From positions 62,001 through 126,000 of the forward strand of contig NZ_CP108443.1 of the NCBI RefSeq assembly GCF_041435355.1: 64,000 nt of DNA. Reading direction: 5' to 3'. Origin of the DNA: Streptomyces sp. NBC_01276 (GTDB taxonomy: Bacteria > Actinomycetota > Actinomycetes > Streptomycetales > Streptomycetaceae). Of the stretch, positions 16,207 to 36,958 are shown piece by piece (positions within the stretch are counted from its first letter, which is position 1; every line of letters starts with the position of its first letter). Position numbers and translations under genes: made by a program. The notes below the pieces were generated by a model. That model was not told where the DNA came from. It ran no database searches and worked only from the letters and a program-made list of their open reading frames with translations.

Positions 16207-17189
16207 TCAGTCGGCGGCTTTGAGGAGGTCGTCGATCCAGATCATCGCGGCGCGGAGGTGGAGTCCGGCGAGGTAGCTGTCCGGGGTTTTGTCGTAGCGG
16301 GTGGCGATGCCTCGCCAGGCTTTCAGCTTGTTGATCAAACGCTCGACGGTGTTCCGTTGCTTGTAGAGGTCGGTGTCGTGGCTGAGGGGCCGGCCGCCTC
16401 CTGCGCCCTTCTTCTTGCGGTTGGCGGCCTGGTCCCGTTTCTCCGGGATGACGGCCTTGATCCCGCGTCTGCGCAGGTAGGCGCGGTTGCCGCGGGACGA
16501 GTACGCCTTATCCGCGGCGACCGCGGCGGGCCTCGTGCGGGGACGGCCGACCGGCAGGCGGACCCGCACTTTCTCGAGCACGGGGATGAATTGCGGGCTG
16601 TCCCCGGCCTGCCCTGCGGTCAACACCAGTGCGAGCGGACGACACCTGCGGTCCGCGGCGAGATGAATCTTGCTCGTGAGTCCGCCCCGGGACCTGCCGA
16701 GCAAGGCTTCCCTCAAACGGAGCCTACGTCTGCGCCGGATGCGCCGGCGTGCTTCCTGTCCGTTCTGTCCCTCCGTGCCGCCCCCTTTTGCCGTGCTGCC
16801 TCCTGCTCCTCCACGGCTTCTTCCAGGGCCTTCATGAGGTGCTTGCTGACGCGGAGCCCTGCGGCGTCGTGATGGGCGCGGACCGTGGTGGAGTCCACGC
16901 TGACCAGCGACAAGTCCGTCCTTCCCGCCCGGGCTGCCTCGGCGATCATGCCTTCCAGCAGGGCAGTGAAGACACCGGCGTCCCGCCAGACGCGGAAGCG
17001 TCCGTACACGGTGGCCCAGGGGCCGAACTCGACAGGCATCTCCCGCCACTGACCACTGGAACGGAACCGCCAGATCACACCCTCGAACTGCTCCCGCAGC
17101 CGCTCCGGGTACGGCCCGTACCTACCGATCGGCAGGTACGGCTCGATGAATTTCCACTGGGCATGGGTGAGTTGCCTGCGCGTCACCAT
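16207..17189 (-). CDS. IS5-family transposase, two frames joined by programmed -1 frameshifting
   Basis: ORF A begins at the ATG at 17189 (MVTRRQLTHAQWKFIEPYLP, with GGTAGGA upstream) and contains LSLVSVDSTTVRAHHDAAGL with the first catalytic Asp; alone it ends at 16713. ORF B covers the second part down to 16207: GLTSKIHLAADRRCRPLALV, AVAADKAYSSRGNRAYLRRR (second Asp), RNTVERLINKLKAWRGIATR (Glu). A slippery heptamer A-AAG-GGG at 16788-16782 lies in the overlap, read in ORF A as CAA-AAG-GGG, and a -1 slip enters ORF B. The full product is about 327 residues with an intact DDE triad. IS5-family elements of this type are known to use such frameshifting, so this is probably functional. Confidence 0.8.
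16782..16788 (-). other. Slippery heptamer for programmed -1 ribosomal frameshift
   Basis: On the minus strand the bases are A-AAG-GGG within C-AAAA-GGGGG-C, exactly the X-XXY-YYZ form in the zero frame of ORF A. Codon 147 counted from the upstream frame start at 17228 is the CAA just before it. Downstream GC-rich sequence could form a stimulatory structure. Confidence 0.7.
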
Positions 17190-17316
17190 CACAGTCCTAC
17201 CGGATTCCACCCCGCGAAGAGGGCACAATCCAGCAGTTGATCACGACATCACACAGGCCCTAACCCCCAGCCCCGGAGCCGACCCGCTGCGGAGCAGCCG
17301 CGCCGCGCTTCCTACG

Positions 17317-18315: not shown

Positions 18316-19425
18316 GTGACCATCTTCCTCGCCGTTGCACTCGGCGTGTTTCTCATCGTGCTTCTACGCTCCGTCACCCGTGGCGGTGTCGCCCGATGGA
18401 TCGAAAAGCGCTTCGTGGCGTCCACTTACGGCCTGCCGCCTCGTGAGGCGCTCGACAGCCGGCGCGCCGGTCCCCCACCTCCGGCGCACCGAGTGCAGGA
18501 GAGGCAGGACATCGCCGACGCCGCGTGGCAAGGGGACTGGCGGACTGCCGACCGGTACGTCCGGGACGCGGGAGAAGACTGGGACGCGCGCTGGGACCGG
18601 CTGGAGCTCCTGCAGCACGTCGCCCGGAAGGACAGTTCCTGGCTCGATGCCTGGCGCGCCGCCGAGCCGGGCAACTGCGACGCGGCGACCCTTCATGCAA
18701 GCCTCATGGTTCACCGGGCCTGGGAGATCCGAGGCACCGCCTTCGCCCACGCGGTCCTGGACCAGGACATGGAGCGCTTCCGCGCCATGCTCCCGGCCGC
18801 GATCGAGGAGGCTCGCAAGGCCGCGCTGCTCGACCCCGCGAACCCGGGCCCCTGGGTCGTCATGGTCACCGCCGCCCGCGGAGCCCGGTACGGCCACAAG
18901 GAGTTCAAGTCCCTCTGGGAGGGCCTCGTCGCCCGCGCGCCCCACCACTACGAGGGGCATTGGCAGGCCCTCCAGTACTGGTGCGCCAAGTGGTTCGGCA
19001 GCAACCGGCGGATGATGCGATTCGCCCGCCAGGCGATCCGCAAGGCCCCGGCCGGCAGCCCTCTCGCCGGGATCTACCTGCACGCGCTGAGCGAACGCGA
19101 CGGCCGCCCCTTCCCTCCCGGGCTGCCCGTCACTCCCATGGCGAGGAACCTGCTGAAGCGGACCGCCGCTTCGTTCGACCAGGTCGCGCCCGACGACGAG
19201 CGCCTGCCGGCCCTGCGCCACCTGCTGGCGCACTACATGCTCCGGTCGATGATGTACTCCCCCGCCCTGGAGCAGTTCCGCCGGATCGGCCCCTGGTGCG
19301 GTGCCGAACCCTGGCGCAGTGCGGGGAACCCGGTCACGGCGTTCGAAGCGGCTCGCGGCAAGGCCGTGAGGCTGTCCCGCGCACGTCCCACCCCGACGGC
19401 GCAGATCTACGGGATAGCCCGCTAG
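18316..19425 (+). CDS. Membrane-anchored helical-repeat (TPR-like) protein, end altered by an IS
   Basis: 369 residues from a GTG at 18316. One N-terminal transmembrane segment (TIFLAVALGVFLIVLLRSV) is followed by a helical cytoplasmic or external region with TPR-like helix pairs: IADAAWQGDWRTADRYVRDA, AAIEEARKAALLDPANPGPW, KEFKSLWEGLVARAPHHYEG, NRRMMRFARQAIRKAPAGSP. The P-x-N-P-x-x-W pattern is typical of tetratricopeptide turns. The stop codon TAG at 19423-19425 is made from the TA target site and first G of the IS630 element, so the natural C-terminus may have been longer. Scaffold function is only an inference. Confidence 0.7.
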   Translation: MTIFLAVALGVFLIVLLRSVTRGGVARWIEKRFVASTYGLPPREALDSRRAGPPPPAHRVQERQDIADAAWQGDWRTADRYVRDAGEDWDARWDRLELLQHVARKDSSWLDAWRAAEPGNCDAATLHASLMVHRAWEIRGTAFAHAVLDQDMERFRAMLPAAIEEARKAALLDPANPGPWVVMVTAARGARYGHKEFKSLWEGLVARAPHHYEGHWQALQYWCAKWFGSNRRMMRFARQAIRKAPAGSPLAGIYLHALSERDGRPFPPGLPVTPMARNLLKRTAASFDQVAPDDERLPALRHLLAHYMLRSMMYSPALEQFRRIGPWCGAEPWRSAGNPVTAFEAARGKAVRLSRARPTPTAQIYGIAR

Positions 19426-20588
19426 TGTGATGCGCCGGGAATCTCAGGGTTAAGTCTGTAGCCTGTTGCCATGTCGCCGGGTCCTCGTGCCATTGAAGTC
19501 CGCCTGTCCGATGAGGAACGTGCGGAGTTGTCGCGTTGGGCGAGTGGGGCGGTGGCGCCGCGGTTCGCGGAGCGGGCGCGCATCGTGCTGGCGTGTGCGG
19601 GCGGAGCGCCGAACGCGCGGGTGGCGGTGGAGGCCGGCGTGACCGCCGCGACGGTGAGGAAATGGCGTGGGAAATTCGCCGCTGAGGGGATGGCCGGGCT
19701 CGAGGATGCCGCGCGCATCGGTCGGCCGAAGGCCGATCTGGTTCTGAGTGAGGCCGAACGGGACCAGCTGATCCGGTGGGCCAGGCGCGCGAAGACCGCC
19801 CAGTACCTGGCGCTTCGCGCGAGGATCGTGCTTCGTTGCGCGGAAGGCGGGACGAACAAGCAGGCCGCGGCCGAACTTGGTGTCGACACCTCGACCGTGG
19901 ATCGCTGGCGCGGTCGTTTCATCGCTGACCGTTTGGACGGTCTGGCCGATGAGCCCAGGCCGGGCCGGCCATCCTCGATTCTCCTCGGCCAGGTCGAGGA
20001 CGTGATCGTGGCGACGCTGGAGTCCACTCCGGGCCGGGACACCCACTGGTCACGGGCCTCGATGGCTGCTCGCACGGGGCTGTCGAAATCGACGGTCGGC
20101 CGGATCTGGAAGCGGTTCGATCTCAAGCCGCACCTGCAGGATTCCTTCAAGCTGTCCACCGATCCGCAGTTTGTCGACAAGGTCGTCGACGTCGTCGGGC
20201 TCTACCACAATCCGCCGGAACGGGCGGTGGTGTTATGCGTGGATGAGAAGAGCCAGATCCAGGCTCTGGACCGCTCGCGGCCAAACACCCCCGCTTCCAC
20301 GTCCACTTCACCCCCACAGGCTCGTCCTGGATCAACCAGGTCGAGCGGTGGTTCGGTCTCCTCACCGACAAACTCATCCGCCGCGGCGTCCACACCTCGG
20401 TGAAAGCACGGGAAGATGACATCCGGGCCTGGATCGAGACCTGGAACGAGGACCCGAAACCCTTCACCTGGACGAAGAGCGCCGACGAGATCCTCAAGTC
20501 CCTCGCCGACTACCTCACCAAAATCACCCCATCAGCCACCAACAACCAGCCGCAGACTTAACCCTGAGATTTCCGGCGCATCACACTA
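19423..20588. mobile_element. IS630-family element with internal deletion
   Basis: 36-base inverted repeats (TAGTGTGATGCGCCGGGAAT at 19423, complement ending 20588) with one mismatch, including the TA duplication typical of the family at both outer ends. The element proper is 19425-20586 (1162 bases). It inserted at the end of the TPR-like gene. Confidence 0.85.
19471..20561 (+). pseudogene. IS630-family transposase missing its middle
   Basis: It starts [20 protein letters not shown] and has two helix-turn-helix units ([40 protein letters not shown]), then [20 protein letters not shown] and [15 protein letters not shown] with the first catalytic Asp. There the frame breaks. In the next frame the sequence resumes as [20 protein letters not shown], with the last Glu, and ends FTWTKSADEILKSLADYLTK with TAA at 20559-20561. 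About 70 residues, including the second Asp (usually in LDNYATHK), are gone, so it cannot be active. Confidence 0.85.
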
Positions 20589-20799
20589 GTGCTGTGACCG
20601 GGAAGGTCTGCCGGGTTGCTCGTTGTGCCGGTCGGATGTGACGACTTCGACTGCCGGGGCCCTGGCATCGGCGGGGGACGCTGGTTCCGGGGCTTCGTCC
20701 GCGGACCGCACCGCCGCTGAGGCCGAGTGAGCGCATGGCTCGGTCGAGCCGGGGCCCGGGGCGCCGGACCCCGGCGGGCGGTGGGGTCCCGACGAGGGG

Positions 20800-26538: not shown

Positions 26539-27013
26539 GCCGGTAACACCTCACTGGAGAGGGGACGGGAAGTACGGCCGAGCCTAGGCAGGTGACCAGG
26601 GCGCATTGCGCCGTGGAGGGGCTTCTTCAGGTTGCCCTAAGGAAGCCCGCAGGATCGACACAGGGACGATCGGGGACATTGCACCCAACTCCGGCCGCCC
26701 CCATCACGTTCACGGTGACGTCCGTCAGGTGCCCGCGGTACGGGGCCGTGGCTCGGCTGACCACGGGCGGTGGGGACCGGCAGGGTGGTGGGCGTACGCA
26801 GCACTCCGGGGAGCACATGTGACCGGTGACCGCACTGCCGGCCCAGAGCCGTGCCTGCCCGGGTGGCCTTCCTCTGGTCCGAGACCGGGGTGCCGTCACG
26901 ACAGGCCCGGTGTCCTGGCTGCGGAAACTGCGTAGTTGCCGAGTTCGCGGTGCGGGTATCGTCCGGTCTCCCGACCCGCCGCACCGGCGGCCTACGTTCA
27001 GAGAGCGACGCAG
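26539..27013. other. Intergenic region upstream of two divergent genes
   Basis: No gene supported in 475 bases. It holds the second 16-base element and, beyond 26700, sequence with no clear structure; the promoters of the CAP gene (minus) and the gene at 27014 (plus) must lie here. Confidence 0.5.
26629..26644 (-). promoter_or_regulatory. Shared 16-base element, copy 2 (CAP gene)
   Basis: AGGTTGCCCTAAGGAA, identical to 24610-24625, 91 bases upstream of the CAP gene's ATG and in the same orientation relative to the gene. Confidence 0.6.
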
Positions 27014-27367
27014 ATGACCGGCCGGCAAGCAACGACGACCCTGTGGCGCCCCACCGGCCCCAAGGAGCTGGATCTGGTTCGGGAGCTGAACTGGCGTGCC
27101 TGGCCGCCCCGCCTGCCCGAGCAGCCGATCTTCTACCCGGTCCTCAACGAGGACTACGCGGTCAGGATCGCGCGGGACTGGAACGTCAAGCACGACGGCG
27201 CCGGCTTCGTCACTCGTTTCGAGGTCGAGTCGGGGTTCTTGAGCCGGTATCCCGTCCAGCAGGCCGGCGGGCAGACGATCCTGGAGCTCTGGGTTCCGGC
27301 CGAGGAACTGGACGAGTTCAATGCCCACATCGTCGGCGAGATCCAGGTGGTCCACGAGTTCCGCTGA
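27014..27367 (+). CDS. ADP-ribosylation/crystallin J1-type small protein
   Basis: 117 residues from an ATG at 27014; the open frame extends upstream to 26936, but that start is less likely. The sequence TTTLWRPTGPKELDLVRELN, WRAWPPRLPEQPIFYPVLNE, DYAVRIARDWNVKHDGAGFV, TRFEVESGFLSRYPVQQAGG, and ELWVPAEELDEFNAHIVGEI matches a small, widely conserved family usually annotated as ADP-ribosylation/crystallin J1, although that name is only historical. I infer a stand-alone beta-sandwich protein. It has no operon partners. Confidence 0.8.
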   Translation: MTGRQATTTLWRPTGPKELDLVRELNWRAWPPRLPEQPIFYPVLNEDYAVRIARDWNVKHDGAGFVTRFEVESGFLSRYPVQQAGGQTILELWVPAEELDEFNAHIVGEIQVVHEFR

Positions 27368-27640
27368 GGCGGGAAGGCCTGCTGACCGGGCATTCCGGCC
27401 GGGTGCGATGATCCCGGCGTGGCTGGTGTCGTCACCGTCGCAGGACCGTGCTGCGCCTGACCGGCGCTCCGAGGACACCGGTCGGGCGGGCGCCGGCACG
27501 GCCCGCGAGCGCGAGACCTACCGCGGCCGGCATCGGCCGCGGCTGCTCGGCCCGCTGACCGTGCCGGCGGGTCAGCACCGGTACCCGCTCCACGATGGCG
27601 GGTCGTCGGCCTCCCGCGGAGGGTGCGGCCGACCAGGGGG

Positions 27641-28780
27641 TCAGGCGGGGATGGTGGCTTCGGGGTGGGTGGCCAGGCGGGCCAGGGGTTCGGCCTCCCG
27701 AGGGTGGCGGGCCTTGACGTAGGCGATCTGGCGGCGCGGTACGCAGCCGCGCAGCAGTTTCGCCCGGTCCGAGCCGGTGGAGTAGTGGATGTGCGTGAGC
27801 CCCTCGGCCATCGCCGTCCGCAGCAGCTCGTAGTAGACGAGCCCGAAGTAGAGCGGCAGCCTGCCCTGTGCCTCGTAGTCGAACCCGGCCTGGCGGGCGT
27901 ACATCTCGCCGCGGTGGGTGAAGGTGAGGGCGAACCCGGCCGGGTTCCCGTCGAGGTGCGCGGTGGTGACCCGGGCGGCCTCGCCGGCGTGGCGGGCGAC
28001 GCTGTGCAGGACGGCGGTGAAGGCGTCCGCGTTCGCGGGGGTGCCGTACTTGGCGTAGAGGGCGAGCTCCAGGGGGGCGAGCTGCTCGATCAGGGCCGGG
28101 GTGAGCGGCTGCGTCCGGTAGGTGACCCCGGCCTCGTCCAGGGCGCGGAGTTCGCGCCTGATCTTCGTACGGCGTGACCGGTCGAAGCGGGCCAGGTAGC
28201 TGTCGAAGGAGCCGTCCTCCGGGACCGGCAGGGAGTACGCCGTCTGGCCCGGCAGTGCCGTGTACCCGCGTTCCGTGAGCACGCCCCGCAGCAGGTGGTC
28301 GTCCTCGTCTACGTACAGGAAGGACACCGCCCGCAGCCCGGCCTCCCGGGCCTCCTCCTCGGCCCGGTGCACCAGGGCCGTGAGGGTGGCGCGTCCGCCG
28401 TCGGGGGCGGGGGCGGTCCCGGCCTTGGTGTGGGAGGGGTTGCGGCCCCCGCACGCCAGGGCGGGCAGCAGCCCGGCGGCCCAGGGGGCCTCCTCGCCGG
28501 TCAGGGTGCGGTGGACGGTGTCCACGACCCTGGCCGGGCTGCAGAAGACGTACGGCGTGTCGTGGTCCAGCGGGTACGCGGGCAGGACGCCGGTGGCGGG
28601 TCCGTCGTCCTCGTGGGCCGTGAGGTAGTACGGGGCGCCGCCCGCGGTGGCCTCGGCGTGCCGCAGCCAGGGGGAGGCGGCGTAGAAGCCGCGGGGGCCG
28701 AGCAGGGCGTCCCACCGCTGCGGGTCGGTGTCGCGCAGGGCGCGGTGGACGCGCACGCGGGGCCCGGGTGCGGCGGTCAC
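27641..28780 (-). CDS. FemX/GNAT-like peptidogalycan-type N-acyltransferase, last gene of the six-gene cluster
   Basis: 379 residues from a GTG at 28780 overlapping the ATP-grasp stop (GTGA). It belongs to the DUF482/FemAB-like group with two GNAT-type lobes: N-terminal DTDPQRWDALLGPRGFYAAS, SPWLRHAEATAGGAPYYLTA; then FLYVDEDDHLLRGVLTERGY, FDRSRRTKIRRELRALDEAG, ARHAGEAARVTTAHLDGNPA, GFALTFTHRGEMYARQAGFD, and LTHIHYSTGSDRAKLLRGCV. Such enzymes transfer amino-acyl groups (from aminoacyl-tRNA or an acyl-CoA) to an amine. With an ATP-grasp ligase upstream it probably adds a second building block to the product. Much longer upstream reading through this frame is only an overlap shadow. Confidence 0.8.
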   Translation of the reverse strand: MTAAPGPRVRVHRALRDTDPQRWDALLGPRGFYAASPWLRHAEATAGGAPYYLTAHEDDGPATGVLPAYPLDHDTPYVFCSPARVVDTVHRTLTGEEAPWAAGLLPALACGGRNPSHTKAGTAPAPDGGRATLTALVHRAEEEAREAGLRAVSFLYVDEDDHLLRGVLTERGYTALPGQTAYSLPVPEDGSFDSYLARFDRSRRTKIRRELRALDEAGVTYRTQPLTPALIEQLAPLELALYAKYGTPANADAFTAVLHSVARHAGEAARVTTAHLDGNPAGFALTFTHRGEMYARQAGFDYEAQGRLPLYFGLVYYELLRTAMAEGLTHIHYSTGSDRAKLLRGCVPRRQIAYVKARHPREAEPLARLATHPEATIPA

Positions 28781-30054
28781 CGGCCGTCGCCCGTCGCGGG
28801 GGCGATGACGGGGGTGAGCTGGCCCAGGGCCGCCTCGGCGCGGCGGACCGCGTCGCCGGTGGTGTCGCCGACGGCCACGACGTAGCCGAGGAGGTCGAGG
28901 TTGCTCTCGGCGGGCCGTACCGGGTCGCCGGGGTGGACCTCGAGGTCGACGTCGACCACGCCGGGGACCCGGCGGGCCAGGTCGGCGCCGCCGATCCCGG
29001 TGAGCGTGCCGGCCTGGCGGGCGGAGAGGTAGCGGGAGGCGGCGGCGCGGTCGTGGGTGGTGGTGAGGTCGGCGGCGAGGCCGGCGTGCAGCCGGACGAC
29101 CTCGCGCTGGAGGTAGAGGCCGGTCGCCTCGCGGATGAGCTGGGTGATCTCCGCGCCGGGCATGCGGCCGTTGACCTCGACGACGTACGGGCCCTTCTCC
29201 GTCATCTTCACCTCGACGTGTGCGGCGCCGAAGTCGTGGCCGACGGCCTCCAGTGCCCGGCGGGCCAGTTCGGTGCACTCGGCGCGGACGGGTTCCGAGA
29301 GCATCGAGGGGAAGGTGTCGCCCATCTCCACGAAGTGCGGGTGCGCGCCGAGGGCCTTGTCGGTGACGCCGAGGAACCGGCGCTCGCCGTCGGCCAGGAC
29401 GGACTCGACGCTCACCTCGAAGCCGAGGAGGTACTCCTCCACGAGTGCTCCGGGGCGGCGGGGCTGGCCGCGGAAGTCGGTCGGGGAGGAGCTGATGTCC
29501 CGGTAGGCGGCGCCGACCTCCTCCGGCGTCCGGCACAGGGTGACGCCGATGCTGGCGGATTCGGTCATGGGCTTGACCACGACCGGGTAACCGAACCGTT
29601 CGGCGGCGGCCAGCGCGTCTTCTTCGGCGGTGGCCTGGTGGAAGCCGGGCACGGCGACGCCCGCCCGCTCGCAGGCCTGGCGCATCAGCAGCTTGTCCCG
29701 GCAGTTGCGGGCGGCCTGCGGGGACAGGCCGGGCAGGCCGAAGTGCGCGGCGACTTCGGCGACGATCGGGATGTTGTAGTCGGTGACGGTCATCACGCCG
29801 CGCAGCAGGCCCTGTTCGTGGAAGGGCAGGAGGGCGGCGACGACGGCGTCGGCCGAGTTGGTGTCGGTGCGCACGATCTCGTCCACGTGCCGGGAGAAGA
29901 TCTCCTCGGCGATCCCGACCACCCGGTAGCGGTCCGGGTCGTTGCTCACCAGGACGGTGTGGAAGCCTAGCTCATGGGCCGCGCGCAGCGGGGTGAGGCC
30001 GAAGTTGGACAGCTGGCTCTCGACGACGGCGATCACGCCGGGTGCGGTGTTCAT
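28777..30054 (-). CDS. ATP-grasp carboxylate-amine ligase
   Basis: 425 residues, ATG at 30054, whose first base overlaps the MFS gene's stop (ATGA). The N-terminal lobe begins VIAVVESQLSNFGLTPLRAA. The ATP-grasp core has NCRDKLLMRQACERAGVAVP, GYPVVVKPMTESASIGVTLC (Lys binding nucleotide), GALVEEYLLGFEVSVESVLA (E-E-Y hinge), AAHVEVKMTEKGPYVVEVNG and RMPGAEITQLIREATGLYLQ, which give the metal-binding E-x-N-x-R. The closing C-terminal domain is PurK/BacD-like. It should activate a carboxylate as acyl phosphate and join it to an amino compound. Substrates unknown. This is the fifth of six coupled genes and the likely assembly step. Confidence 0.88.
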   Translation of the reverse strand: MNTAPGVIAVVESQLSNFGLTPLRAAHELGFHTVLVSNDPDRYRVVGIAEEIFSRHVDEIVRTDTNSADAVVAALLPFHEQGLLRGVMTVTDYNIPIVAEVAAHFGLPGLSPQAARNCRDKLLMRQACERAGVAVPGFHQATAEEDALAAAERFGYPVVVKPMTESASIGVTLCRTPEEVGAAYRDISSSPTDFRGQPRRPGALVEEYLLGFEVSVESVLADGERRFLGVTDKALGAHPHFVEMGDTFPSMLSEPVRAECTELARRALEAVGHDFGAAHVEVKMTEKGPYVVEVNGRMPGAEITQLIREATGLYLQREVVRLHAGLAADLTTTHDRAAASRYLSARQAGTLTGIGGADLARRVPGVVDVDLEVHPGDPVRPAESNLDLLGYVVAVGDTTGDAVRRAEAALGQLTPVIAPATGDGR

Positions 30055-31370
30055 GTCTGGTTTCCTCCAGGGTCGGGGGTCGGGGCCGGGGTGGGGTCCG
30101 CCTCGGCGGCGGGGGTGGGGGACGGGACCGGGGACACGGCCCGGGTGATGGCCCGGCGGGCGGCCAGGCTCAGCAGGAGGGCGGCCAGGGTGAAGGCGGC
30201 GGGCATGCACAGCGCCGCGCCGGGGCCGGCCCGGTCCGCGACCAGGCCCGTGAGGGCGGAGCCGGCCGCACCGCCGAGGGCGATGAAGCTGCCGACGCCC
30301 GCGAAGGCCTGGGTGGCCCGGCCCTGCGCGGTCATCTCCCCGATGAGCTGGAACTCCTCGGCGCCGGCCGGGGCCATGGGGAGCCCGCTGAGCACGAGCA
30401 GGACCCCGAGCAGTACCAGTGCCCCGCCCGCCGGGAGGCCGGGCGCGAGGGCGCGTACGGCGGGCAGGGCCGCCAGCGCCAGGGTCAGCACGATCAGCAG
30501 GCGGAGGTAGCGCCCGTACGTCGTGCCCCCGAAGGTGCGCGCGCCGTAGAGGAGGCCGCCGACCACGCTGCCCGCCGACTGGAGGGCGACGAGGGTGCCG
30601 GCGAGTTCGGGTGCCGAGCCCTGGTCCTGCAGGGAGGCGGTGACCGCGACCACGAGTCCGCTGGACAGTGCCGCCGTCAGGGCGATCGCCACGAGGACGG
30701 CGGTGGCGGCGGCCCGGACGGGTGCCGGTTCCGGTTCCGCCTGCGTCGGGTCCGCGGCGTCGGGGGTCGTCGCGGTCCGGCCCGCGCGCCCCCGTACGGC
30801 GGGTGCCTGCCCGTACACGAGGCCTCCGGCGCCCAGCAGGACGGCGGTCACCAGCAGTGCGCCGCGGGCACCGGTGAGGGTGGCGAGGACGGTGACGGCG
30901 GTCGGGCCGAGGATGAAGAGCAGTTCGCTGAGCGTGGCCTCGAAGGAGTAGGCCCGCTGCCTCAGGGCCGCGTCCTCGGTGAGGGACGGCCACAGGGCTC
31001 GCATCGACGCCCCGACGGGGGCCGTGGCCAGCCCGGCCGCGCAGGCTGTGGGCACCACTGCGGCCGGGGTGCCGGCCGCGGTCAGGGCGGCCGCCGCCAG
31101 GGCGAGGCCCGCGAGGGGGCCGGAGACCCGCAGGACGCGGCTCGGGCCGGCCCGGTCCATCAGCCGGCCGGTGAAGGGTCCCCCGACCGCGCTGCCGACG
31201 GCGTAGGCCGCGCCGGCGGCGGCCCCGGCCGCGAGGGAGCGTCCGGACTGGACGCAGGCGAGCAGCAGGGCGATGGGGACCATGGTCCCGGCCAGGCGCG
31301 CGAGCGCGGCGGGCACCGCCGCCGCGCTCGCGCCCGGAAGCCTCAGGAGCTCCAGGTAGGCCTTGACCAT
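30051..31370 (-). CDS. MFS transporter, probable product exporter
   Basis: 439 residues, ATG at 31370, which overlaps the TAA of the decarboxylase gene by one base (TAATG). About 12 hydrophobic segments are visible, in two halves of six (AALARLAGTMVPIALLLACV ... ALLVTAVLLGAGGLVYGQAP; linker ; AAATAVLVAIALTAALSSGL ... AGSALTGLVADRAGPGAALC). The motif GPFTGRLMDRAGPSRVLR matches MFS motif A. The Gly/Pro/Thr-rich tail (PVPSPTPAAEADPTPAPTPD) is unusual. It most likely exports the cluster's end product and gives self-resistance, as BacE does in bacilysin clusters. Confidence 0.85.
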   Translation of the reverse strand: MVKAYLELLRLPGASAAAVPAALARLAGTMVPIALLLACVQSGRSLAAGAAAGAAYAVGSAVGGPFTGRLMDRAGPSRVLRVSGPLAGLALAAAALTAAGTPAAVVPTACAAGLATAPVGASMRALWPSLTEDAALRQRAYSFEATLSELLFILGPTAVTVLATLTGARGALLVTAVLLGAGGLVYGQAPAVRGRAGRTATTPDAADPTQAEPEPAPVRAAATAVLVAIALTAALSSGLVVAVTASLQDQGSAPELAGTLVALQSAGSVVGGLLYGARTFGGTTYGRYLRLLIVLTLALAALPAVRALAPGLPAGGALVLLGVLLVLSGLPMAPAGAEEFQLIGEMTAQGRATQAFAGVGSFIALGGAAGSALTGLVADRAGPGAALCMPAAFTLAALLLSLAARRAITRAVSPVPSPTPAAEADPTPAPTPDPGGNQT

Positions 31371-32800
31371 TACGGGGTACCGGGCGTCGGGGCCGGGCCG
31401 GCCGGGTCGGCCAGGGCGAAGACGTCCGTGCCGGTCTCGGCCCGCCAGACCAGCTGTTCGGCGTCCCCGTCGACCGCGACGACGGCGGCCCGGGTCCGTA
31501 TGAAATTGTTGCTGCGGCCGAGCGAGTAGGCGCCCGTGTCGTGCAGGCACAGGAGGTCCCCGGCCCGTACGTCGTCGGGCAGCTCCGTGGCGGCGGCGTG
31601 CACGTCGTTCTCGTAGCACAGCGGTCCGGCCACCGACCAGGTGCTGTTCGCGGCCGAGTACTGCCTGCCGATCGGGGTGAGGCGGTGGACCTCGCCGGTG
31701 CCGCTCCACGGGGTGACGTGGTTGCCTGCGTCGAGGATCAGCCAGCGGGCTTCGGGGAGTTCCTTGCGCGACATCACCCGCGTGACCATGGCCATGACGT
31801 CCGAGACCAGCCAGCGGCCGGGCTCGCAGGCGAGTGCCACCCCGTCGAGGCCGCGCAGCCGCATCCGTTCGTCCAGTTCCGGCAGCAGCCGGGCGATGTC
31901 GAGGAAGGGCTCCTCCTCCGGGAAGGGGTCCTCCCCGCGCAGGGCTGCCAGCGCGCTCTGCGGGCCGGTGCGGGGGCGCCGGATGCCGGGTACGCCGAAC
32001 CCGCCGCCGATGTTGACCTCGGTGAGGCCGAACCGGGCGTGCAGCTTCGCGGCTTCGTCCAGGACCCGGTCCAGTGCCGTCAGCATCAGGTCCTCATGGA
32101 CGATCTGGCTGCTGAGGTGGGCGTGGACGGCCCGCAGGGCCAGGTGCGGGGACGCTTCGATCCGGTCCACCAGGGCGGCGAGCTGCGGTGATCCGGCGGG
32201 CCAGCCGAAGCGGGTGCGGGCGGCGGCGCGTTCGGCCTGGGCCCGGTAGCTGGGGTCGGCGGAGGTGGAGACGGGCAGGCCCGGGGAAATCCGGATGCCG
32301 ACCTCGATGGGGCGCCCGGTGCGGGCGGCGACGGCCTCCAGCGCGTCGATCTCCTGCTCGCCGTCGATGTTGACGCGTACGCCGTGCCGTACGGCGGCGG
32401 CCAGTTCGTCGTCCGTCTTCACGGGGCCGTTGAACACCATCGCGGCGGGGTCGAAGCCGGCGGCCAGCGCGGCCTCCATCTCGTACCCGGAGACGACGTC
32501 CGCGCCGAGGCCGTGGGTGGCGAGCCGCCTCATGAGGTAGGGCAGGTAGTTGGTCTTCACCGAGTAGTAGGCGCGGGCGGGCCTGCCGAGCCCGCCGAGC
32601 ACCTCCAGCAGGTGGGCGGTGGCGCGGTCCAGGCGTCCGGCGTCGAGGACGTGCACGGGGGTGCCGTGGCGCTGCGCGACGTCGGCCAGCCGTGCGGGGT
32701 CCCAGCCGGGTCCCGTGCCGGGGTCCGTGTTCGTCTTCTTGTCCGTTTCCGTGTCCGTGTTGTTCGTGTCCGTGTTCGTGTCCGGCCGGGGACGGCTCAT
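31370..32800 (-). CDS. Fold-type III PLP-dependent amino-acid decarboxylase (LysA/ODC-like)
   Basis: 476 residues, ATG at 32800 overlapping the methyltransferase stop. The first about 32 residues are a Thr/Asp/Asn-rich repeat (TDTNNTDTETDKKTNTDPGT). The alanine-racemase-like barrel has the PLP lysine in RPARAYYSVKTNYLPYLMRR, then GLGADVVSGYEMEAALAAGF, VFNGPVKTDDELAAAVRHGV, RVNIDGEQEIDALEAVAA, LRAVHAHLSSQIVHED, NIGGGFGVPGIRRP (phosphate loop), LACEPGRWLVSDVMAMVTRV and the C-terminal strand domain with LLCLHDTGAYSLGRSNNFI. The usual Cys-x-x-x-D of the dimer interface is kept as C-L-H-D. It probably decarboxylates a diamino or modified amino acid. A true LysA housekeeping role is unlikely because of its setting. 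Confidence 0.87.
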   Translation of the reverse strand: MSRPRPDTNTDTNNTDTETDKKTNTDPGTGPGWDPARLADVAQRHGTPVHVLDAGRLDRATAHLLEVLGGLGRPARAYYSVKTNYLPYLMRRLATHGLGADVVSGYEMEAALAAGFDPAAMVFNGPVKTDDELAAAVRHGVRVNIDGEQEIDALEAVAARTGRPIEVGIRISPGLPVSTSADPSYRAQAERAAARTRFGWPAGSPQLAALVDRIEASPHLALRAVHAHLSSQIVHEDLMLTALDRVLDEAAKLHARFGLTEVNIGGGFGVPGIRRPRTGPQSALAALRGEDPFPEEEPFLDIARLLPELDERMRLRGLDGVALACEPGRWLVSDVMAMVTRVMSRKELPEARWLILDAGNHVTPWSGTGEVHRLTPIGRQYSAANSTWSVAGPLCYENDVHAAATELPDDVRAGDLLCLHDTGAYSLGRSNNFIRTRAAVVAVDGDAEQLVWRAETGTDVFALADPAGPAPTPGTP

Positions 32801-33633
32801 GCGGACGCCTCCGTCCGCGCGGCGTGGACGGACTCGCCGGTGAGCAGGCGGAAGCCGGCGTCGATGTGGTCGCGGGTGGCGAGGTCTGCGTAGCGGCGGT
32901 GCCATCGGCCCGAGGCGAGGTCGTCGCGCAGGCGGGTGACGCCCCGGTCGACGGCCTGCTCGTCGGTGAGGGCGAAGGCGGAGCAGGCGCGGCGCGTGGC
33001 GGGGTCGAGGTAGGCCTCGGGTCGGCGCCAGAAGGCGGTCATGAATCCGTCGGTGAAGTCGTGCCAGACGGGGAGTTCCGCCACGTCGCAGGGGCCGAGG
33101 AGCTTGGTGAGGCGTTCGAGGGAGGGCACGCGGGAGCACTCCGCCTCGGCGATCTCCGGGACGTAGTCGCGGGTGAACCAGAAGTTCCGCTGCACGTTCA
33201 TGTCGTAGGTGACGAGGGAGAAGCGGCGGGCGACGCGCTGGAGTTCGGCGATCCCGGCTTCCAGGTCCGTCCAGTGGTGGACGGTGAGGACGGCCATGAC
33301 GGCGTCGAAGCTCTGGTCGTCGAAGGGCAGCCGTTCGGCGCTCGCGACGACGCACGGCGCCGCGAGCGGGCCGCGCTGGGCCCGCATGCGCAGGGACGGT
33401 TCGACCGCGACGAGCGTGCGGCCCTCGGGCTCGTAGGCACCGGTTCCGGCGCCGAGGTTGAGCACCGTGCGGGCGTCGCCGAGCGAGGCCTCGATCTGCG
33501 CGGCCCAGCGGTGGTCGGGGCGGCGTACGGAGGAGTAGCCGACGCCGATCCGGTCGTAGACGGGGGCGTGGCCCGCGGGTGCGGCGGTGCCGGCGGACGT
33601 GGCCGGCGCGGTGGGGGGCAGGGTTCGGGACAT
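32797..33633 (-). CDS. SAM-dependent methyltransferase (class I)
   Basis: 278 residues, ATG at 33633; its stop overlaps the start of the decarboxylase gene. After a Pro/Ala-rich start, RIGVGYSSVRRPDHRWAAQI leads to motif I TVLNLGAGTGAYEPEG, motif II TLVAVEPSLRMRAQRG, then AERLPFDDQSFDAVMAVLTV (motif III) and HHWTDLEAGIAELQRVARRF. The C-terminal lid has YDMNVQRNFWFTRDYVPEIA and an all-helical end. It is related to small-molecule methyltransferases (UbiE/Methyltransf_11). It probably methylates the cluster intermediate on O, N or C; which cannot be told. It is separated from the oxygenase by only five bases. Confidence 0.85.
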   Translation of the reverse strand: MSRTLPPTAPATSAGTAAPAGHAPVYDRIGVGYSSVRRPDHRWAAQIEASLGDARTVLNLGAGTGAYEPEGRTLVAVEPSLRMRAQRGPLAAPCVVASAERLPFDDQSFDAVMAVLTVHHWTDLEAGIAELQRVARRFSLVTYDMNVQRNFWFTRDYVPEIAEAECSRVPSLERLTKLLGPCDVAELPVWHDFTDGFMTAFWRRPEAYLDPATRRACSAFALTDEQAVDRGVTRLRDDLASGRWHRRYADLATRDHIDAGFRLLTGESVHAARTEASA

Positions 33634-33638
33634 CGTGC

Positions 33639-34325
33639 TCAGACCTCCCTGCTCGCGCGGACCTCGGCCTCGTACTCCTCGCCGTAGCGCCGGTTGTCCC
33701 AGGTGTTCACCGCGACGAGCCACACGTCGCGGTGGCCGCCCTCGTCGGTGAGGTGCTCGATGTCGGTGACGTGGTGGAACATCAGGCGGTCGTCGAAGGC
33801 GATGGCCTGGCCGTCCTGGAGGGTGGTGCGGAAGAAGGGCTCGCCGCCGCCGAGGGGCATGAGCTGGGTCTCGCCGCCGGAGATGTTGTGGCGGCGGGTG
33901 ACGGCGACGATGCCGTACTGGTGGCCGTCCCGGTGCGGTCCCTCCGGTGCGGCGACGCCGTCGACCTCGGGGGTGGAGACGACGCGGCACTGGTGGATGT
34001 TCAGCTGCCAGGCGGTGTTCTTGTCGAGGCCCAGCGCTTCGGCGCCGGCCGCGATGAGCGGGGTGGGATCGGTGGTCAGCGGTTCCAGCGTGCGCATCTG
34101 GCCGCCGACGAGGTCGTTGTACTGGCGCGGCTGCGCGAAGTGACGGTGCGGCAGCAGTTCCAGCTTCCACTGGTCTTCGTGGACCAGGCGGAACTGGGAG
34201 AAGCGCCGGTACCTCTGCGTCGAGCCGGTGTACGGGTCGAGCGGCAGCTTCTCGAACTCGGCCAGGCTGTGCTCGTCCAGCGGCGGCGTGTCTATGACCG
34301 CGTAGCCCTTGTCGCCCAGACTCAT
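33639..34325 (-). CDS. 2OG-Fe(II) dioxygenase (amino-acid hydroxylase type), first gene of the six-gene cluster
   Basis: 228 residues, ATG at 34325; an in-frame GTG or ATG at 34337 is possible. It fits the PF10014 (2OG-Fe_Oxy_2) family that includes free L-isoleucine hydroxylases. Evidence: YRRFSQFRLVHEDQWKLELL, TAWQLNIHQCRVVSTPEVDG, the facial triad start GPHRDGHQYGIVAVTRRHNI (HxD), GGETQLMPLGGGEPFFRTTL, then MFHHVTDIEHLTDEGGHRDV (distal His, Arg for 2-oxoglutarate). A role in hydroxylating a free or ligated amino acid is likely. It leads the transcript; a promoter with a palindrome lies 62-104 bases upstream. Confidence 0.87.
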   Translation of the reverse strand: MSLGDKGYAVIDTPPLDEHSLAEFEKLPLDPYTGSTQRYRRFSQFRLVHEDQWKLELLPHRHFAQPRQYNDLVGGQMRTLEPLTTDPTPLIAAGAEALGLDKNTAWQLNIHQCRVVSTPEVDGVAAPEGPHRDGHQYGIVAVTRRHNISGGETQLMPLGGGEPFFRTTLQDGQAIAFDDRLMFHHVTDIEHLTDEGGHRDVWLVAVNTWDNRRYGEEYEAEVRASREV

Positions 34326-34386
34326 GTCAACCCCCAACGTCAGGAGCCCGGAAGTGTGTTCTCCGGGCTTCGAAGCAACGCTGTGC

Positions 34387-34416
34387 AGGCTAGGCAGGTG
34401 TACGACACACCGACAA
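34387..34416 (-). promoter_or_regulatory. Likely promoter of the six-gene cluster
   Basis: On the minus strand TTGTCG (34416-34411) and TAGCCT (34392-34387) are spaced by 18 bases, matching a vegetative sigma (HrdB-type) promoter. The -35 box overlaps the palindrome at 34414-34429. The transcript start would be near 34380, about 55 bases before the oxygenase ATG. Confidence 0.55.
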
Positions 34417-34429
34417 GATCATGATCTTG
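34414..34429. promoter_or_regulatory. 16-bp perfect palindrome, candidate operator
   Basis: CAAGATCATGATCTTG is completely self-complementary and overlaps the predicted -35 box of the cluster promoter. A repressor binding it would block transcription. No regulator gene is within the cluster, so the controlling protein is encoded elsewhere. Confidence 0.6.
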
Positions 34430-34798
34430 GCATGAACGCCGGTGGAACTAGACAACTTGTCGGGTGGACAAGCCGCATACCAAGCGGTATGGGAGGGTCG
34501 CGCGACAGCGGGCACCCGGACGTGGCCACGGGGCAGTCGTGGCCTGAATGATACCAGCCTTCATGGCTGAAATCCGACGACCATTCAGGTGTCCGGACAG
34601 CGCGGGGTGTTGCGGTTGGCCCGTACGGTGGCCTTCGGGTCGGTGAGGGACGCGGCGCGGGTGGGGAGGATGCCAACAGAAACCGAGCAGCCTTAACGGA
34701 CGACCACCTCCAGCACCAACCCGTACAGCCGCCCGGAGCAGTCAACAACCACCGCACACGAACGCGGTCACCCGCCGACAACCGGCCGCTGGGGCAGG

Positions 34799-36958
34799 TC
34801 AAGGTGACGCAGGAGCCGTGCAGGCGGTGAGGAGTGCCCTGGCGCGGTTCCGGAGGGCTTCGTCCTGGCGGATGATGCGATCTTCGACTCCCGAGCGGAT
34901 CACCCGGGCGTCGCCGTCGGCGAGATCGGCGAGTCGGCGCACGTGGTCGCTGGTCAATGCGTCGGGGCCGAGTGCTTCCAGGGCGTCGCAGGCGCTCGTC
35001 GGATCGGCGTCCGATTCGGCCGACCGCAAGGCGGCCTCAGCGAGCGAGGTGCGGTCCAGCGAGGCGGGTTCGGCTACGGCCGTGAGGGCCAGCACTGCGG
35101 CCGGCGCCTGTGCCGGATCGCCGAGGGCGGATTCCAGGCGAGCGACGAGCGGCCGTCCCGCGGGGCCGAGGAGGGCGGTCGCGCGGGCGGCCCGCACCAC
35201 CGACCACCGGGACCAGGGGTTCTGTTCGGCGCGCGCGAAGACCGAGTCCAGAACGGCGACCACCCGGTCCGCGTCCCCCGCGACACGCCACAAAGCCTCA
35301 GCGAGGGCCGTGTCCGTATCCAGCGCGGGCGTGGTGTCGGAGGTCGAGCCGTCGAGCACCTCGCGGAGGGCAGGCACGAGCGCCGCTGCCCGGGGACCGA
35401 GCGCAGCCGCCGTCGTGGTGGCCTCCCTGAGCTGGTTGGCGCCACGTCGGAGGTCCTGTTCGAGGCAGTGCAGGAGCGGCGCGATCTCGCCGTCGAGGTC
35501 GTACAGGGCCTTCGCCGCGGGGAGGACTCCCTGCTCGGCCGTCACCGCCCGCAACGAGGCGGCGGCCCGGTTGCGGTCCGTCGGGGTGCAATGGGCGGCG
35601 AGGGAAGCAATGGCTCGGGCGGCCTGGCCGGGAAAGTGTGGGAGCGCCGCGCACAGCTCGGGCAACGCCGGCGCTGCCGCGGCACCCCACCCCGCCAGCA
35701 GGTTCGTCAGCTGCGAGGGTTCGTTGCCGCTCAGGACCTCGGGCTGGGTGAGGCGGTGGCGGACCGCGTCGAGGAGTTCTCCGTCGTACGGGAAGGCGGA
35801 GTCCCCCGCGCTGCGGAACCCGGCGGCGGCGTCGAGGGCCCGGGGGCGCCGCCCGAGTCCGGCGGCCAGGAGCGGGGCCGACTGTGCGGGCGCGACGAGT
35901 ACGAGCGCGGCCAGGGCCCGGTCCGCATGGTCGTCGTCGTGGTGCGGGTTCCGTCGGGCGAGGGGGGCGAGGATCTCCGCGGCTGGTGCGGCGACGCTGC
36001 CCAACCGGCCCAGGAGGGACGACACGGCAAGCACCGACTCCTCGTCGACGGCCGCCGCTCGCAGGTTCCACACCAGTCGCCGCGGGGCGCTGCGAGAGAG
36101 CGTGCAGACGCGGTCGGCCGCCCAGAGGCCTTCGGCCCGCACCTCGGCCCGATCGTCGTGCAGGGCCGCGTCGATCAGTGCGAACGCCGCCTTGCGCTCC
36201 TTGCGGCGGTCCCGGCCCAGGAGTGCCTCGATGACGGCGGCCAGCGGCTCACCGCGTTCGAGGTCGAGATCGGAGCGCAGGGGGTCGGCCGGCAGAAGGG
36301 ACAGCATCGTCGTGTGCATGGGCTCCGTCCACGGAGCGCCGGCGTCAAGGGAGGCGAAGAGGGCGGCCATGCGCACCTCGGCGGGCTGGGACGGGTCCAG
36401 GACGGCGGCGGCTGCCGCCGCTCCGCCCTGCGGGTCGAGCCGGGTGATCCCGGCCAGGACCTCCGCGCGGGCGGCGGATTCGGGTTCCTGGTCCCAGCGG
36501 GCGCGGAGCGCGGGGAGCGCGGTCTCGGACTCGCGGGTGTGGGACACCACCCAGGCCGCGGTCCGGCGGACCTCCGGCTCCGCAGAGGCCAACAGGGGCA
36601 GCAGCAACGGGAGCTGGTCGGCGACGGCCGCCCGGACCGCGCCCGGTACCACGCGGTACTCGTCGTCGCTCTCGGCCATGCCGCCCAGCAACGCCAGGAC
36701 GTCCACCGTGCGGTGGCCGGCCGCCGCGATTTCGGCCAGGAACGGCACCGCCTCCGCGCTGGCGGCGTAGACCGTCCCCTGGTGCAGGAGGCTCCCGTAC
36801 AGCTCGGACAGGGCCTCCTCCGCCGCGTCCGCGTCGGTGCCGGTCAGAGCCCGCAGCAGAGGGGGAACGTCCTCCGCACTGCCGTAGGCGTGGGAGAGGG
36901 AAGACCATGGCCGGGCGTCCAGGCCGTCGAGCGCGCGTGCGAGATCCATGCGCAGCAT
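34799..36958 (-). CDS. HEAT-repeat protein
   Basis: 719 residues from an ATG at 36958 (an ATG at 36949, or the open frame to 37048, is possible). It is made of helical pairs of about 35-40 residues: ALDGLDARPWSSLSHAYGSA, VPPLLRALTGTDADAAEEAL, LPLLLPLLASAEPEVRRTAA, LPALRARWDQEPESAARAEV, RAEVRAEGLWAADRVCTLSR, then further repeats to ALRNRARALLTACTAPA. HEAT/armadillo-type superhelices bind other proteins. There is no catalytic motif or signal peptide, so it is cytoplasmic. It is alone on its transcript. Partner unknown. Confidence 0.75.
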   Translation of the reverse strand: MLRMDLARALDGLDARPWSSLSHAYGSAEDVPPLLRALTGTDADAAEEALSELYGSLLHQGTVYAASAEAVPFLAEIAAAGHRTVDVLALLGGMAESDDEYRVVPGAVRAAVADQLPLLLPLLASAEPEVRRTAAWVVSHTRESETALPALRARWDQEPESAARAEVLAGITRLDPQGGAAAAAAVLDPSQPAEVRMAALFASLDAGAPWTEPMHTTMLSLLPADPLRSDLDLERGEPLAAVIEALLGRDRRKERKAAFALIDAALHDDRAEVRAEGLWAADRVCTLSRSAPRRLVWNLRAAAVDEESVLAVSSLLGRLGSVAAPAAEILAPLARRNPHHDDDHADRALAALVLVAPAQSAPLLAAGLGRRPRALDAAAGFRSAGDSAFPYDGELLDAVRHRLTQPEVLSGNEPSQLTNLLAGWGAAAAPALPELCAALPHFPGQAARAIASLAAHCTPTDRNRAAASLRAVTAEQGVLPAAKALYDLDGEIAPLLHCLEQDLRRGANQLREATTTAAALGPRAAALVPALREVLDGSTSDTTPALDTDTALAEALWRVAGDADRVVAVLDSVFARAEQNPWSRWSVVRAARATALLGPAGRPLVARLESALGDPAQAPAAVLALTAVAEPASLDRTSLAEAALRSAESDADPTSACDALEALGPDALTSDHVRRLADLADGDARVIRSGVEDRIIRQDEALRNRARALLTACTAPASP

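Follow-up and report, generated by a model that had tools for sequence, protein, structure and literature searches.

Two kinds of described pathway stand closest to the gene cluster analyzed here. In hormaomycin and belactosin biosynthesis, PF10014 oxygenases of the HrmJ/BelL fold act on a nitro amino acid; PMC10764440 describes that HrmJ and BelL cyclize their natural substrate 6-nitronorleucine to a cyclopropane and that a substrate analogue bearing a carboxylate instead of the nitro group underwent hydroxylation only. Bacilysin-type clusters pair the L-amino acid ligase BacD with BacE, an exporter of the major facilitator superfamily (MFS). We analyzed a 64,000-nucleotide stretch of Streptomyces sp. 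NBC_01276 (the window; contig NZ_CP108443.1, positions 62,001 to 126,000), in which an earlier note had singled out a compact six-gene block on the minus strand (27641..34325) that combines features of both. Among the literature matches listed, this gene set was not described. We propose, with about as much confidence as doubt, that it is an operon that moves horizontally and directs synthesis of a small amine derived from an amino acid. The oxygenase would act on a free L-amino acid, probably one of lysine-like length, and would probably place a hydroxyl at C4; a pyridoxal phosphate (PLP) enzyme would then remove the alpha-carboxyl group; and the methyltransferase would cap the new oxygen, for which relatives would use a sulfotransferase. 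An ATP-grasp ligase would acylate the amine with an amino acid, a FemX-like enzyme would add a further aminoacyl group from aminoacyl-tRNA and an MFS protein would export the product. Observed directly are the gene set with its open frames, its recurrence as a unit in differing surroundings, the enzyme families and folds and the exchange of methyltransferase and sulfotransferase; all substrates, the sequence of reactions, the methylation site and the product's role are inferred.

The block opens with an Fe(II)/2-oxoglutarate oxygenase with a HrmJ/BelL-like fold (PF10014; 33639..34325, ATG at 34325, stop codon ending at 33639), followed by a class I S-adenosylmethionine-dependent methyltransferase (PF08241; 32797..33633, ATG at 33633) and a fold-type III PLP decarboxylase of the diaminopimelate (DAP)/ornithine decarboxylase superfamily (PF02784 and PF00278; 31370..32800, ATG at 32800). 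Next come an MFS transporter, a probable exporter (PF07690; 30051..31370, ATG at 31370), an ATP-grasp ligase with an L-amino acid ligase C-terminal domain (PF13535 and PF18603; 28777..30054, ATG at 30054) and a FemABX-like transferase with two Gcn5-related N-acetyltransferase (GNAT) domains, predicted to depend on aminoacyl-tRNA (PF04339 and PF13480; 27641..28780, GTG at 28780). Pfam matches of all six proteins exceeded the gathering score, in agreement with the families assigned by the earlier note. Junctions, read directly and recomputed, measure +5, −4, −1 (TAATG), −4 and −4 bases in gene order; the described unit of four overlaps and a single 5-base gap between oxygenase and methyltransferase, with no unrelated gene inside, was thereby confirmed. 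The annotated copy in Streptomyces sp. NBC_00158 has the identical five junctions (5, −4, −1, −4, −4).

The main support for an O-capping step comes from comparison with related loci. A pattern scan with the decarboxylase alignment across a collection of 84,980 species gave 16 loci, to which one from a phylum sample (L083) and two from plasmids were added; two remote hits were removed, and 18 loci, the window included, were compared. Left out were L059 and L060 (27% and 26% identity, oxygenase not found), L084 (its record equal in size to that of L045), L062 and L081 (short versions of L083 and L084), L001, L043, L061 and L082 (the window itself) and L031, L044 and L002 (the Streptomyces altiplanensis contig of L046; L031 and L046 were counted once). 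Because the stretches compared flank the genes by only 0 to 10 kb, anything encoded further off would be missed. The oxygenase was present in 18/18 loci, as was the decarboxylase, in its case by construction, since loci were chosen by it. A methyltransferase occurred in eight and a sulfotransferase in ten, never both and never neither; neither was found in 11 BelL-like loci. Two sulfotransferases that were tested belong to PF19798, and all ten retain PRSxST plus other residues. The sulfotransferase of L055 (Micromonospora) had no PDB sequence match at 0.01, and none was found when the plasmid collection was searched with it. Close relatives of the cluster sulfotransferase were seen in P0254 (Nostoc), P0286 (Paenibacillus kribbensis) and P0258 (Sulfitobacter).

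As only the oxygenase and decarboxylase are common to all 18 loci, the six-gene set appears as one edition of a wider pathway. ATP-grasp relatives accompany all five sulfotransferase-type loci of Actinomadura, Micromonospora and Streptomyces zagrosensis, and a FemX-like gene is present in two sulfotransferase-type loci (L054 and L055). A glutamine-synthetase-like gene occurs in L052, L053 and L058, and another, together with a LysE-type exporter, in L051, L056 and L057. Among the database matches listed, decarboxylases of type I, the methyltransferase-bearing group, were paired with FemX in at least 14/32 cases and with a sulfotransferase in 0/32, and group II decarboxylases with a sulfotransferase in at least 7/30 and with FemX in 0/30. 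Pairing was judged from equal record size, which is only a proxy, within the best 120 decarboxylase and best 120 sulfotransferase matches; type I membership was assigned by identity, fragments included.

Several points weigh against the proposed scheme. The constancy of the decarboxylase is built into the sampling, and the two weaker scan hits, L059 and L060, have no oxygenase. Acylation does not belong to the core, as no ATP-grasp relative was found in the stretches compared from the Acidimicrobiales locus and 4/4 alphaproteobacterial loci. The methyltransferase/sulfotransferase split follows the decarboxylase tree, in which type I is one clade (100/100 support), and may therefore be a single event. 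The bases of the decarboxylase and oxygenase trees lack resolution, the latter with long branches, so we make no claim about which cap is older; the oxygenase tree likewise does not resolve a single clade of cluster oxygenases apart from HrmJ/BelL, whose natural reaction is cyclization. In the decarboxylase, Arg429 is invariant where the five chains compared have Met or Leu, the Arg of the RPxxY loop of DAP decarboxylases is absent and the Glu after the Cys is gone, with CES-D changed to mostly CY(E/D)xD. In LysA, the loop that is changed here holds DAP by its distal end. With these pocket motifs changed, lysine is a guess as substrate; a lysine-like molecule is suggested by the two amide-forming enzymes, which would fit a diamine.

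HrmJ and BelL are the closest relatives of the cluster oxygenase by both fold and sequence. Its likely metal triad (H131, D133 and H184) and R199 are invariant in 26/26 aligned oxygenases. This kinship, together with the cyclopropane that HrmJ and BelL make from 6-nitronorleucine, would favor a ring- or double-bond-forming oxygenase, in which case the methyltransferase or sulfotransferase would act on some other group. We consider this unlikely: with three HDO queries at E 1e-5, a gene for the HDO (BelK/HrmI type) that supplies the nitro substrate turned up in 0/18 loci, within flanking stretches of 0 to 10 kb, versus 11/11 BelL-like loci; the carboxylate analogue was only hydroxylated (PMC10764440); and thirteen positions set the cluster oxygenases apart from the HrmJ/BelL group, two of them (P130 and R132) adjoining metal ligands. 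A belactosin- or hormaomycin-type cluster was rejected on the same absence of HDO. Unlike those pathways, the cluster has a decarboxylase, a methyltransferase and a FemX-like gene, and neither a nonribosomal peptide synthetase (NRPS) nor a DAP epimerase is among its six genes. Other PF10014 hydroxylases belong to different pathways: isoleucine dioxygenase (IDO) shares 19% identity over 195 residues with the cluster oxygenase, and GlbB is set apart here by pathway only. The eleven BelL/HrmJ-like loci with an HDO gene (L032–L042), from ten Streptomyces genomes, are likely nitrocyclopropyl-alanine clusters; L032 has several ATP-grasp hits and L041 an NRPS.

The second core enzyme has the features of a fold-type III PLP decarboxylase, namely PF02784 with PF00278, a PLP Lys and an active-site Cys, and its activity is predicted accordingly. 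It shares domain order and both residues with the DAP decarboxylase LysA, from which it differs by its pocket motifs, its separate clade (100/100 support against four LysA-like rows in a 27-row tree) and its TIGR01048 score of 233.9 bits, below the curated cut-off of 297.9. A role in lysine biosynthesis was rejected on this missed cut-off; the genome encodes another, LysA-like match on contig C1. Lys82 (PLP) and Cys395 (active site) are invariant in 40/40 decarboxylase rows, and residue 365 is Trp in 23/23 type I rows and Thr in 17/17 others. Related fold-type III enzymes, going by the names of matches (BtrK and N-citrylornithine decarboxylase), act on conjugates, which would suit decarboxylation as the last step, on a ligated intermediate, so that an intact amino acid would end up in a dipeptide with a C-terminal aminoalkyl group. 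This order seems improbable: in the stretches compared from the Acidimicrobiales and alphaproteobacterial loci, oxygenase, decarboxylase and sulfotransferase occur together but no ATP-grasp relative was found, and the core thus appears to work without that ligation. We also set aside a decarboxylative ring closure in which sulfate would depart, against which type I argues because methoxy is a poor leaving group.

The best PDB match of the methyltransferase is 3ege, a putative methyltransferase of an antibiotic pathway. Carboxyl methylation serves as temporary protection in the belactosin and cystargolide pathways. By that precedent the methyl could be a temporary protecting group and the final product no ether, and cryptic steps are on record for small ATP-grasp pathways (PMC11427300 and PMC11408123). 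Such a role has little probability here. No esterase is among the six genes, the alpha/beta hydrolases that lie close to the block in the window and in NBC_00158 are unrelated to each other at E 1e-5, the usual carboxyl would be removed by the decarboxylase and the exchange for a sulfotransferase is more in keeping with an alcohol as acceptor.

For the proposed capped amine, amide formation without an NRPS, as the earlier note had envisaged, stands as the most likely plan. The ATP-grasp protein matches PF18603 at 5.5e-22, with BL00235 and BacD as best PDB matches. The cluster thus shares the ligase and MFS exporter pairing of bacilysin-type clusters, but none of its genes is an anticapsin gene (all belong to other families, with no extra genes in the block), and its proposed pathway would also hydroxylate, decarboxylate and methylate and would use a tRNA-type transferase. 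The transferase had no PDB sequence match at E 1e-3; its fold, a double GNAT nearest to FemX and Sbb17 rather than to CoA-type GNATs, bore out the FemX-like label given previously. Its Lys341 is invariant in 33/33 sequences and is a candidate counterpart of the catalytic Lys305 of Weissella FemX. The aminoacyl-tRNA-dependent Fem-type natural product enzymes VlmA, PacB, DhpH, Orf11 and Sbb17 likewise have a double-GNAT fold and an invariant Lys near the C-terminus; unlike them, the cluster transferase belongs to the PF04339/PF13480 branch.

The six genes form one unit, in the proposed reading a horizontally moving operon. They stand in the same order in the window, L045, L046, L047, L049, L085 and L086, and L048 keeps this order up to the MFS gene, after which its contig ends; co-conservation in several Streptomyces, which the earlier note had asked for, therefore extends to seven other type I loci. 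The reading frames are open, with dN/dS of 0.11–0.47 across 18 gene comparisons with L085, L086 and L047; the draft locus L046 shows frame changes in its MFS and transferase matches. Searching the plasmid collection with the decarboxylase at E 1e-30 matched two records, both linear Streptomyces plasmids, from NBC_00158 (497,602 bases) and Caat 7-52 (334,691 bases). Between window positions 20001–42000 and 17.3 kb around the NBC_00158 copy, the sole long match spans 27636–34589 (94.8%), from a few bases beyond the last stop codon to 264 bases before the first start codon, with no genes beyond the six; two other matches measure at most 43 bases each. A whole-record NBC_00158 search with window 14000–38000 returned the same borders at the best place (96.0%, weighted), plus a second matching place. 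The window's contig (583,105 bases) is probably also a plasmid, as all seven 16S genes of the genome lie on an 8.2-Mb contig and none on this one. The decarboxylase clade was found in 2/392 sampled Streptomyces genomes, 2/394 family genomes and 2/396 phylum genomes, with at most four candidates scored per genome and samples that share at least the genome of the window; in the phylum sample, a clear gap lies below the clade matches (5e-185 versus 3e-71).

Around the block, the nearest Pfam-matched genes are, downstream, one for a CAP-domain protein and, upstream, a weakly armadillo-like open reading frame and one for a TAP-like hydrolase; none of the three had a relative at E 1e-5 in the 17 other loci. 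Regions of IS5- and IS630-family transposases from Streptomyces plasmids matched at window positions ~15800–17240 and 19420–20620. The clusters of Caat 7-52 (L086 13071–14087) and Streptomyces musisoli (L045 8265–9284) carry a seventh gene that overlaps the FemX-like gene at its end; it encodes an FMN-dependent alpha-hydroxy-acid oxidase, and the two copies are 97% identical. A small GNAT acetyltransferase frame, possibly for self-protection by N-acetylation, follows the cluster in Streptomyces sp. V4I2 (L049 14919–15548) and the Acidimicrobiales locus (L083 7342–8370).

Upstream of the oxygenase, 264 bases shared with the NBC_00158 copy (34326..34589, minus strand) form a conserved region and probable promoter/operator, and homology breaks off sharply at 34589. 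Across six type I loci this region is poorly conserved overall (mean column identity 50%). The inverted repeat GACAA-G-TTGTC (34451..34461, minus strand) lies about 136 bases ahead of the oxygenase start codon, and it or a near form recurs 136–139 bases before the start in 5/8 type I loci; alone it is not rare, as 6/100 window shuffles gave as many matches. A second inverted repeat, CATACC-N4-GGTATG (34476..34491), is common to the NBC_00158 copy only (1/7 other type I loci). The single likely promoter of the earlier note did not materialize in a sigma-70 scan of 27000–35200, which gave none and is uninformative for Streptomyces. A short inverted repeat, CCTGAATG/CATTCAGG, at 34543–34589 ends at the edge of the NBC_00158 homology and may be due to chance.

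By analogy with bacilysin, the product of the operon could plausibly be a carrier-bound antimetabolite. More tentatively, the 18 loci may represent an NRPS-free family in two phyla that makes an antimetabolite series from one hydroxyamine core with exchangeable caps and carriers, its Streptomyces edition moving between plasmids. Oxygenase and decarboxylase would supply the core and O-methyl or O-sulfate the cap, and the carrier would be an ATP-grasp-derived aminoacyl, a tRNA-derived aminoacyl or a glutamyl group added by the glutamine-synthetase-like ligase. The six-gene pathway is small, with sharp natural borders and no megasynthase gene, and the methyltransferase/sulfotransferase exchange gives an otherwise vague orphan cluster a claim that can be tested, namely that both enzymes act on the oxygen introduced by a HrmJ/BelL-type oxygenase. 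If true, this would reveal action of a HrmJ/BelL-type oxygenase without a nitro substrate.
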